A DNA stretch of 64,000 nucleotides, taken from positions 1-64,000 of the forward strand of contig VFZG01000008.1 in the NCBI GenBank assembly GCA_016871275.1, given 5' to 3'. This document shows, in pieces, positions 60,457-64,000 of this stretch. The first letter of the stretch is position 1. Every line of letters begins with the position of its first letter. The notes beneath the pieces were generated by a model. The model had not been told where the DNA came from and did not search any database. It saw nothing but the letters and a program-made list of their open reading frames with translations. Source of the stretch: Acidimicrobiia bacterium. Lineage in GTDB: Bacteria; Acidobacteriota; Vicinamibacteria; Vicinamibacterales; UBA2999. Both the position numbers and the translations under genes were made by a program.

Positions 60457-61923
60457 ATGCGGTTCTCTCTGAAGCAGCAGCAGGTGTTCGGCGTAACGGT
60501 GATGGTGGCGCTGATCGTCAGTGCGTTGAGCCTGCTGCACCTGGTCAACACCGCCGGCGTGCTGCTGGCCGAGAGCCGCGATCGGTTCGAGCTGTTCGGC
60601 AGCGCGGTCTATTCGCAGACCGCCGCGGCGATCGCGACGCCGGAGACCGCCTACCAGGACGTGCGCACCAGCAGGTTCGTGCAGTCGGCGCTCGAGTCGG
60701 CGCTCTACTCGCAGGACACGCTCGATGCGTCGATCGTCGACCCGGCGGGGATCGTCGTCGCGTCGAGCGATCCGGCGCAGATTGGCCGGGCCGTCGCGCG
60801 CCGGCCGCAGCTGAACGACCTGATGGCGATGAGCGGACTGGCCCGCCTGCGCGCCATTTACGCCGCGAACAACAACATCGAGTGGACCCAGCCGATGGCG
60901 CTCGGCGACCGGCCGTTCGGCGAGATTCGCATTGGCCTGACCACCGCGCTGGTGCAGCGCGACCTCAACGAGTCACTGCGGCCGTCGGCCCTCGCCGCCA
61001 GCATCGCGCTGCTGATCGCCGTCGTCACGTCACTGCTGCTCGCCCAGCTGGTGTTGCGGCCGATGCATATCATCCGCAGCAGCCTGTCGCGGCTGGGCCG
61101 CGGCGACCTTGGCGCGACGCTCGATCTCCGCGACGACGACGAGTTTCGCGAGCTGGGGGATGTGTTCGACCAGGTCAGCGCGCAGCTGAGGGCGGCATCG
61201 CCGGCGGGATTGACCCGAGCGCAACTCGCCGAGCTGTCGCGCCGCATTGCCATGGTCGGGCGCCTCACGGCCGGCGTGGCGCACGAGATGAAGAATCCGC
61301 TCAATGCGATGACCATTCATCTCGAGTTGCTGAAACAGAAACTCGCCCAGGGCAAGCCGGCGTCGATGCATGCCGACGTCATCGAGCAGGAGATTCGCCG
61401 CCTGGACGAACGCATCCAGGGCTTCCTGCGGTTCGTGCGTCCCGACGAGGTGAAGTTCGGCGCCGTGGCGCTGGCGCCGCTGCTTGGCAGCGTGCTGGAT
61501 GCCGTGCAGCTGGAAGCGCAACGCGCCAATGTGTCGATCGCGCGCCACTGCGGCGACGGCGCGCTGCTGGTGGAGGGTGATGCCGCGCAGCTGCGGGACG
61601 TGTTCCTCAACCTCGCGCAGAACGCGATCCAGGCCATGCCGAAGGGCGGGCGGCTGACGGTGTCTTGCGCAGCGCTGCCCGACCGCCGCGTGCGTGTGCG
61701 CGTCGAAGATACCGGGGTGGGCATCGCGCCCGAGAACCTCACCCGTATCTTTGAGCTCTACTACACGACCAAGGAGCGGGGGACAGGCGTAGGGTTGTCG
61801 ATGGTGTATCGCACGGTCCAGATTCACAACGGCGAGATCGACGTCGAATCCACGGTCGGGGTCGGCACGACGTTCATAGTCGTACTGCCAGCGGTGAGAC
61901 AAGAAGTGAGCAGTGAGCAGTGA
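60457..61923 (+). CDS. HAMP-domain sensor histidine kinase
   Basis: Two TM segments with sensor loop; VAHEMKNPLNAMTIHLELLK; FLNLAQNAIQAM; ERGTGVGLSMVYRTVQIHNG. Confidence 0.93.
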   Translation: MRFSLKQQQVFGVTVMVALIVSALSLLHLVNTAGVLLAESRDRFELFGSAVYSQTAAAIATPETAYQDVRTSRFVQSALESALYSQDTLDASIVDPAGIVVASSDPAQIGRAVARRPQLNDLMAMSGLARLRAIYAANNNIEWTQPMALGDRPFGEIRIGLTTALVQRDLNESLRPSALAASIALLIAVVTSLLLAQLVLRPMHIIRSSLSRLGRGDLGATLDLRDDDEFRELGDVFDQVSAQLRAASPAGLTRAQLAELSRRIAMVGRLTAGVAHEMKNPLNAMTIHLELLKQKLAQGKPASMHADVIEQEIRRLDERIQGFLRFVRPDEVKFGAVALAPLLGSVLDAVQLEAQRANVSIARHCGDGALLVEGDAAQLRDVFLNLAQNAIQAMPKGGRLTVSCAALPDRRVRVRVEDTGVGIAPENLTRIFELYYTTKERGTGVGLSMVYRTVQIHNGEIDVESTVGVGTTFIVVLPAVRQEVSSEQ

Positions 61924-61992
61924 GAAGTGAGCAGTGAGAAGTGTGCACGCTTCCTGCTTCTGACTTCTCACTTCTGACTTCTCACTTCTCCC
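61901..61992. repeat. GAGAAGT/GAGCAGT-type long hairpin repeat downstream of the histidine kinase
   Basis: aagaagtgagcagtgagcagtgagaagtgagcagtgagaagtgtgcacgcttcctgcttctgacttctcacttctgacttctcacttctccc. Confidence 0.88.
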
Positions 61993-62000
61993 TTGATAGG

Positions 62001-62543
62001 ATGAACGGCGTGCGCCTGACGGTCATCGTCCTGCTGGCGGCCTCACTCGGTGCCTGCGCCGCGAAGGCGCAGGTGCGCACCGAAGTGGCGATGCCGCTCC
62101 TCGATCCGCCACCGCCGCCGCCGCGCGTGGTGGCTGCCTACCTGCCGGAGCCCGAGCCGGTGGTGGCACCGCCGGTGGAACCGGTCGCGCCGCCCCGTGC
62201 TCCGGCGCGGCCCTCGCGCCCCGAACCGAAGCCGGAACCAGTGCCGCCTGCGCCAGACCCCGCTGGAGCCGCCGCCCGTCCCGTGCCGCCGTCGTTGACG
62301 CTCACGCCGACAGCGGGTTCTGAGGCGCAGACCGTGAACGCCATTCGCGGCTTGATGGCCCGCGCCTTGCGCGATCTCTCGCGGGTGAATGTCGCGACGC
62401 TGAACAACGATGGCCGCGCCCAGTTCGACACGGCGCGGCGCTTCATCCAGCAGGCCGAAGAGGCACTCAAGGGGCGCAACTTCGTGTTTGCGGGGAAACT
62501 CGCCGATAAGGCCGCGACCCTGGCGGCTGTTCTCGTTCGTTAG
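62001..62543 (+). CDS. Pro-rich putative lipoprotein
   Basis: Lipobox AASLGACAAK; Pro-rich middle; C-terminal AEEALKGRNFVFAGKLADKAATLAAVLVR. Confidence 0.75.
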   Translation: MNGVRLTVIVLLAASLGACAAKAQVRTEVAMPLLDPPPPPPRVVAAYLPEPEPVVAPPVEPVAPPRAPARPSRPEPKPEPVPPAPDPAGAAARPVPPSLTLTPTAGSEAQTVNAIRGLMARALRDLSRVNVATLNNDGRAQFDTARRFIQQAEEALKGRNFVFAGKLADKAATLAAVLVR

Positions 62544-62548
62544 CGCAC
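62493..62548 (+). repeat. Left copy of a 56-bp imperfect direct repeat flanking the methylase
   Basis: gggaaactcgccgataaggccgcgaccctggcggctgttctcgttcgttagcgcac; 45/56 identical (counted by eye) to 63478-63533. Confidence 0.85.
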
Positions 62549-62638
62549 GGCGCACCCCCGGGGGTCATTGACCGTGCTGCGATCAGGAGGCGCGGGTTTG
62601 CCCGTTCCAGGCCGTCGGTTAGACTGCGATTGGCGCAG

Positions 62639-63442
62639 ATGCCCGTCATCACCCGCACCCGTCCGGACGCCCTGCAGCCGCCTCTGAAATGGGCTGGCGG
62701 GAAGCGGTGGCAGGTTCCGCACATCAAGTCCTTATGGGAGCCACACGCCCATCGTCGACTGATTGAGCCGTTCGCTGGTGGTTTGGCTGTCACGCTAGGC
62801 GTGCAGCCGGAACGGGCGCTGCTCAACGATGCCAACCCACATCTGATCAACTTCTACCGCTGGCTCAAGAAGGGCCTCCGCACCTCCATTGCCATGGAGA
62901 ACGACGAAGGCCTGTTCTACCAGCACCGTGATCGGTTCAACGCGCTGGTGCGCGCCGGGGAGTCAGATTCTCGAGAGTCTGCGGCGCTGTTCTACTACTT
63001 GAATCGGACCGGTTATAACGGCCTGTGCCGCTTCAATAGCCGGGGCGATTTCAACGTCCCATTCGGGAGCTACAAGACCATCACGTATGCCAGGTCGTTC
63101 GCGGCGCACCGCGAGGCGTTTGCCGATTGGGAGTTTACGACCGGGGATTTTGCCGAGATTCCTCTCGACAGAGACGACTTCGTGTACGCCGATCCGCCGT
63201 ACGACGTGGAGTTCACGGCCTATTCGCCGGGCGGGTTCTCTTGGGACGATCAGAGGAGGACGGCGGAGCTGCTGGCCATGCACAGTGGTCCGGTGGTGCT
63301 GGTCAACCTGTCCACGCCGAGAATCGATTCGATGTACCGCAAGCTCGGCTACGAGGTGCGCTATCTCGACGCGCCCCGGCGGATCAGTTGCAATGGCAAC
63401 CGGCGCCCGGCCAGGGAAATACTCGCAACTCGCAACCTATGA
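62639..63442 (+). CDS. D12-class N6-adenine DNA methyltransferase (Dam-like)
   Basis: PPLKWAGGKRWQVPHI; IEPFAGGLAVTL; FVYADPPYDVEFTAY (DPPY); NRTGYNGLCRFNSRGDFNVPFG. Confidence 0.94.
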   Translation: MPVITRTRPDALQPPLKWAGGKRWQVPHIKSLWEPHAHRRLIEPFAGGLAVTLGVQPERALLNDANPHLINFYRWLKKGLRTSIAMENDEGLFYQHRDRFNALVRAGESDSRESAALFYYLNRTGYNGLCRFNSRGDFNVPFGSYKTITYARSFAAHREAFADWEFTTGDFAEIPLDRDDFVYADPPYDVEFTAYSPGGFSWDDQRRTAELLAMHSGPVVLVNLSTPRIDSMYRKLGYEVRYLDAPRRISCNGNRRPAREILATRNL

Positions 63443-63612
63443 CGCCGCGCTCAGTTAAGCCACGGGCGTCGGGGACCAGGAAACTCGCCGACACGTCCGC
63501 TACCATGGCGACCGTTCTCGTCCGTTGGTGCACTTCTGCGCAAACTTGCGCTATCGCGACCGTTTGGCTTGCCGAAAAATTCTCGTTAAGCGAAAATCGA
63601 GCGAATAATTAG
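63439..63612 (+). other. 57-codon ORF overlapping the methylase stop (ATGA); possibly a displaced gene end rather than a real CDS
   Basis: In-frame KLADTSATMATVLVR matches the C-terminus of the upstream lipoprotein (KLADKAATLAAVLVR*). Confidence 0.4.
63478..63533 (+). repeat. Right copy of a 56-bp imperfect direct repeat flanking the methylase
   Basis: aggaaactcgccgacacgtccgctaccatggcgaccgttctcgtccgttggtgcac. Confidence 0.85.
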
Positions 63613-63693
63613 GATCTGGCCGAAAAGCTCGATATATTGCGGACGACCTAACAAAAAAACCCAACATGTAGTGTTCTAAGTACTTGACAACAA

Positions 63694-63924
63694 ATGGTTG
63701 CAAGCGCATATTTGGCGACGCACGCGAAAACGACTCTTCGATCGCCAGGCACTCCCAGTGGCCCGGTGATTGAGCCGGATCGCAAGCACTTAACGAAGAG
63801 ATTCAGCGATTCAGGAACAAAGTCGGATCCGCGCGTATTAGCCAAATTTAAAGCGTTCGAAGTAGACAGGGCGATTGACCCTTGGGGGAGGGGTGTCGCC
63901 ATGCGGAGGAAGAAGCATGCGTGA
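63694..63924 (+). CDS. Hypothetical small protein at the start of an AT-richer tract
   Basis: 76-aa ORF; overlaps an ATG (63917) that stays open to the window end. No family recognised. A promoter-like element (63684-63712) implies the true start may be internal. Confidence 0.3.
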   Translation: MVASAYLATHAKTTLRSPGTPSGPVIEPDRKHLTKRFSDSGTKSDPRVLAKFKAFEVDRAIDPWGRGVAMRRKKHA

Positions 63925-64000
63925 AGGCGCTTCTCAGAAAGGCCTGTCGGCCTCGCCGGCCGGGCAGACAGTCAGTTCAGCATCATCCAGTTCAGAGACG

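Follow-up and report, generated by a model that had tools for sequence, protein, structure and literature searches.

An orphan Dam-family methylase gene inserted between two copies of a lipoprotein gene end in an Acidobacteriota genome

Organization of the locus

The window, a stretch of 64,000 bp at the start of contig VFZG01000008.1, contains near its end a lipoprotein gene, an orphan methylase gene and the beginning of nrdJ, all located on the forward strand, as are the parts of the locus between them. The lipoprotein gene (62001–62543) is intact, with the lipobox LGAC, and was the target of the insertion. It was found in 76 of 99 related genomes, including all eight sampled congeners, and had a single match in its own genome. 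A tandem degenerate repeat, GAGCAGTGAGAAGTGAGCAGTGAGAAGTG with an inverted counterpart CACTTCTCACTTCTGACTTCTCACTTC, was observed at 61900–62000, between a histidine kinase gene further upstream and the lipoprotein gene. The nrdJ gene, recognized by family resemblance, starts at 63917, occupies the window to its end at 64000 and runs on to contig position 66826; its product is presumably a vitamin B12-dependent ribonucleotide reductase. Housekeeping-like genes follow nrdJ on the contig. The nrdJ leader and promoter region (63535–63916), with TTGCCGAAAAA from 63569, is long (about 380 bp) and conserved, contains a TTGACA-like promoter and had no match in Rfam; it may hold binding sites for NrdR or other regulators.

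The end of the lipoprotein gene is present twice as a 55-bp direct repeat. Copy 1 (62495–62549) is the functional gene end and comprises the last 49 bp of the gene, including the stop codon, and 6 bp past it; its translation is KLADKAATLAAVLVR followed by the stop TAG. Copy 2 (63480–63534), starting 985 bp downstream of the start of copy 1, is translated as KLADTSATMATVLVRW, with TAG replaced by TGG and the stop lost. The copies match at 45 of 55 bases (81.8%). The initial annotation had described this repeat with the same spacing, reading frames and translations, including the change of the stop to Trp, all of which hold; its length, given as 56 bp with 45 matches, was recomputed as 55 bp. 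BLAST of copy 2 against its own genome (3.96 Mb, 124 contigs) returned copy 1 with an E value of 1.7e-8 and the next match at 0.37, so that the search for further repeat copies proposed earlier ends with these two and no third one in the genome. When the two flanks were compared without gaps, the best 55-mer reached 45 matches, whereas none of 60 dinucleotide-preserving shuffles exceeded 33.

Methylase gene and nuclease stump

The segment between the copies (62550–63479) is 930 bp long and contains one gene. As first annotated, this is a single Dam-like D12 methylase: the product matched PF02086 with an E value of 2.4e-42 and TIGR00571 with 187.7 bits, above the curated cut-off of 114.85, and has an intact DPPY catalytic motif. 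It is thus an N6-adenine methyltransferase of the Dam family (D12, alpha), with DpnM (2dpm) and EcoDam as the closest solved relatives. Its coding sequence (62639–63442) probably begins at ATG 62639 rather than at TTG 62630, because relatives start there. The methylase resembles known orphan methylases of the Dam family (TIGR00571; PADLOC oMTase PDLC03729; DpnM/Dam structures 2dpm and 4rtj) in its whole-length match and in the DPPY motif. Unlike a fixed host Dam, it is patchily distributed, occupies different sites in different species and has relatives with a partner nuclease.

The window methylase ends with CCTATGACGCCGCGC and then diverges from its relatives: the start codon of a nuclease gene and three further codons follow, with nothing beyond. 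This stump of the partner restriction nuclease (63439–63450; ATGACGCCGCGC, codons MTPR) comprises the first four codons only (ATGACGCCGCG), and its start codon overlaps the methylase stop in the sequence ATGA. DNA similarity to the relatives bearing restriction-modification (R-M) systems reaches the stump and ends there, while similarity to the stump-less orphan of congener G001 stops 8 bp earlier. The filler between the stump and the displaced gene end (63451–63479) gave no identified match. The nuclease start codon also opens a fused 57-aa frame (63439–63612), MTPRSVKPRASGTR-KLADTSATMATVLVRW..., that joins the displaced end of the lipoprotein gene in the frame originally used by the gene.

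Beside the window methylase, four codons are what remains of a cognate nuclease that is intact in relatives. The search for a restriction endonuclease proposed earlier yielded this stump at 63439–63450, and a protein search of the same genome (G000) found no nuclease relative elsewhere. The insert appears to be an R-M remnant, an orphan methylase with a nuclease stump, in agreement with one of the options of the initial annotation. The methylase is probably active. The frequency of GATC in the 100 kb read indicated neither avoidance nor enrichment (ratio 0.97).

The empty site in congeners

In seven congeners (G001, G002, G003, G004, G005, G006 and G008) the lipoprotein gene is followed by the nrdJ leader with no methylase, and the distance from the lipoprotein stop to nrdJ is about 380–415 bp. 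The leader is conserved among congeners (TTGCCGAAAAACTTTCGTTAAGCGAAAATA through to the start codon), and the window aligns with it, and with the sequence following the gene end in these genomes, without a break from 63535. Therefore, copy 2 and the sequence downstream correspond to the original arrangement, and 62550–63479 is the insert. Copy 2 is thus the displaced original end of the lipoprotein gene, separated from the gene body by the inserted segment. These findings bear out the initial annotation in three respects: relatives with an empty site exist, the insertion took place at a gene terminus, and an intact end on one side faces a drifting, displaced end on the other.

A different insert, about 700 bp long, occupies the lipoprotein–nrdJ interval of the eighth congener, G007 (L013; G007:C6:15731-16840); it encodes two small Cys-rich, zinc-ribbon-like ORFs and has no gene-end repeat. 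Extra genes in this interval were also observed in G028 (3.2 kb) and G023 (1.9 kb). The interval between the two genes looks like an insertion-prone spot.

An origin of copy 2 from another, degraded lipoprotein gene, of which it would be the tail, is extremely improbable despite the protein-like end KLADTSATMATVLVR, since there is no homology upstream of copy 2 (63443–63479), the genome contains a single lipoprotein match, and congeners pass from one gene directly to the nrdJ leader; the tandem paralogue that the initial annotation named as its own refutation is excluded on the last two grounds.

Substitutions in the two copies

Most of the changes by which copy 2 differs from both copy 1 and the congeners alter the encoded amino acid (K to T, A to S, A to T). 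In copy 1 a single coding change is private, and the remaining differences are silent. The two patterns are those of a gene end under constraint (copy 1) and of one free to drift (copy 2). Three silent third-codon states (G, A and G in Gly, Lys and Ala codons) are common to both copies and occur in none of the eight congeners, and this exclusive sharing exceeds that of any other pair in the comparison. The shared silent states fit the making of one copy from the other in this lineage, and an imported copy would have to come from a very near unsampled relative; a local target duplication is therefore favoured over an imported attachment site of an integrase. The identity of the coding parts of the copies (40/49) is no higher than that of copy 1 to congener G001. 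Overall identity alone does not separate copying within the lineage from import, and the argument for the former therefore rests on the three sites.

The methylase–nuclease family in the order

About a third of the 162 genomes of the order contain close relatives of the methylase (about 60–82% identity), which lie at scattered sites. At 15 of the 52 family loci the methylase stop overlaps or abuts a frame of about 138 aa that matches the PD-(D/E)XK nuclease family PF20472 above the curated cut-off (E values of about 1e-10 to 2e-13). In many relatives the overlap has the form ATGA or GTGA, and the nuclease frame begins with MTPRNTNTGGVLEAM. With the nuclease as a query, matches were obtained in 16 genomes, and every strong one abuts a methylase of this family, which suggests that the two genes would form a compact Type II R-M system. 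Longer or internally deleted nuclease stumps were found in G005, G046, G018 and G116.

On the maximum-likelihood tree of 52 methylases, the distribution of the nuclease requires 12 changes, of which well-supported branches demand at least 7, and its clustering does not exceed that of shuffled labels. The window methylase forms a well-supported clade with the methylases of G005, G001 (contig 104) and G002. No nuclease was found beside the members of this clade as far as their contigs extend, the G002 copy being cut on its downstream side by a contig end.

The methylase family is mobile: orphan methylases of the genus occupy at least three different sites, each of which is empty in some congeners. 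Besides the one behind the lipoprotein gene in the window, the G005 methylase lies between two genes that resemble those of the HIT family and of acyl-CoA dehydrogenases, and the G001 methylase lies beside tig and tRNA-Leu. In congeners, including G000, the two neighbours of the G005 site are close together with no methylase, a clean empty counterpart to the G005 site, which itself has no long duplication, and in G000 tig and tRNA-Leu are present, also with no methylase.

Targeting of tRNA genes was considered and rejected: the G001 copy is near tRNA-Leu and some distant ones are near tRNA-Met, but most have no tRNA gene nearby and the window site has none. A phage or plasmid vehicle was likewise discarded, the closest phage proteins being 46% identical, those in IMG/VR 59% and those of plasmids under 60%; no partner nuclease was found near the methylase copies in IMG/VR.

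Among the family loci with enough flanking sequence (52 loci in all), none besides the window has a comparable unique bracket, and the 55-bp bracket is thus seen in this locus only. A duplication is therefore not a regular signature of the family. The sole other strong repeat in the family scan, a 96-bp bracket at L109 in G044, is a palindromic dispersed repeat, GGTCGACCTTGGTCGACC...GCGTCGAGCAAGCTCGACGC, that flanks a methylase copy (L109:1047-1142 and L109:2405-2499) and mimics a bracket; with 47 matches in this one 7.5-Mb genome, it was rejected as a target duplication.

Origin of the insert

The likely explanation is that a small Type II R-M unit entered the lipoprotein gene at its 3' end with duplication of the target, after which the nuclease gene was deleted and copy 2 drifted. 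The insert is absent from the orthologous site of seven congeners, both bracketing copies are homologous to the single gene end of the congeners and share private states, and the inserted genes are those of an R-M system, a methylase and a nuclease stump, with intact pairs in 15 relatives. A unit consisting of a Dam-family methylase gene and an overlapping PD-(D/E)XK nuclease gene would have come in at the gene end, with 55 bp or more of the local target being duplicated, through a staggered break with repair synthesis or through recombination of an R-M-bearing molecule at the local sequence. Copy 1 would have left the lipoprotein gene with an intact end, and the original one, copy 2, would have moved downstream to its place beside the nrdJ leader. 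Deletion of the nuclease gene after its fourth codon would have left the methylase an orphan, and copy 2, no longer coding, would have lost its stop and drifted. We infer both the duplication at the moment of insertion and this order of events. The deletion ends just before copy 2, and the duplication may therefore once have been longer. Points against this explanation are the lack of a unique bracket at the other family loci with enough flank and the chance that copy 1 could come from an unsampled sister lineage, the closest comparison genomes being other species of the genus.

Insertion of R-M genes with a long target duplication has been established by comparing the genomes of relatives (Nobusato, Uchiyama, Ohashi and Kobayashi 2000, Gene 259:99, as cited in PMC3031569 and PMC1643837). 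In the case as those papers cite it, as here, the R-M set is absent from the same site of a relative, and a direct repeat of the target flanks the insert with no transposase or integrase. That case came from two strains of Helicobacter pylori, while the present one is seen across species of an Acidobacteriota genus; unlike in the cited case, only the methylase is left here and the repeat is already 18% diverged.

Site-specific integration, the main proposal of the initial annotation, is unlikely. In this scenario, an element whose attP resembled the end of the lipoprotein gene would have recombined there (tyrosine-recombinase type), substituted its own copy for the 3' end of the gene and later lost its integrase and most of its cargo, with the methylase left between attL and attR. 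The order of intact gene end, cargo and displaced gene end matches 3'-end integration exactly, as in integrative elements with attB in gene 3' ends; the imperfect repeat and the empty site in congeners also fit. These elements differ from the 930-bp, one-gene insert in having an integrase, a larger cargo and recurrence. No integrase was found within about 40 kb of the insert, nor in the 36 kb past 64000 to which the search was extended as originally proposed; along the contig, the nearest PF00589 matches lie upstream at about 40 kb and downstream at about 61 kb. Recurrent use of an att sequence is not seen, other methylase loci of the family having no such bracket, and the 1.5-kb flanks of intact methylase–nuclease units elsewhere have no common element structure. 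What remains of the cargo corresponds exactly to an R-M unit whose nuclease is reduced to a stump, and the silent states shared by the copies are private to this lineage.

We consider quite improbable a scenario in which the methylase family is a minimal transposase-free mobile unit that still relocates after loss of the nuclease by a dedicated mechanism, with occasional long target duplications. If it were true, successive moves would account for the four orphan copies of the genus, of which at least three occupy different sites.

Homologous import is very unlikely. A donor fragment from a close relative having the methylase behind its lipoprotein gene, taken up by natural transformation or a similar route, would have recombined in the gene and been joined illegitimately at the other side, leaving two gene ends. 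This would account for a foreign single-gene segment with no mobility genes and for the 10 of 55 bases that differ between the copies. However, no sampled congener has a methylase behind the lipoprotein gene, the private silent states demand a very near donor, and the question would merely be shifted to that donor.

Implications

As a probable insertion of an R-M unit with target duplication, the locus adds a case to a kind already known; it is of value for its plainly empty site in congeners, for the stump and for belonging to a family that often loses the nuclease. The movement of R-M genes in the absence of a transposase or integrase has long been an open question, and the methylase family provides insertion sites, one of them with a readable target duplication, whose counterparts in congeners are empty. 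Within this one family, about a dozen changes in the presence of the partner nuclease fall on the tree, and the stumps are visible. In the published view, decay of complete systems is rarely the source of solitary methylases (PMC4176335). At the level of the genus and the order, although the scale of that survey differs, this methylase family is a counter-example.
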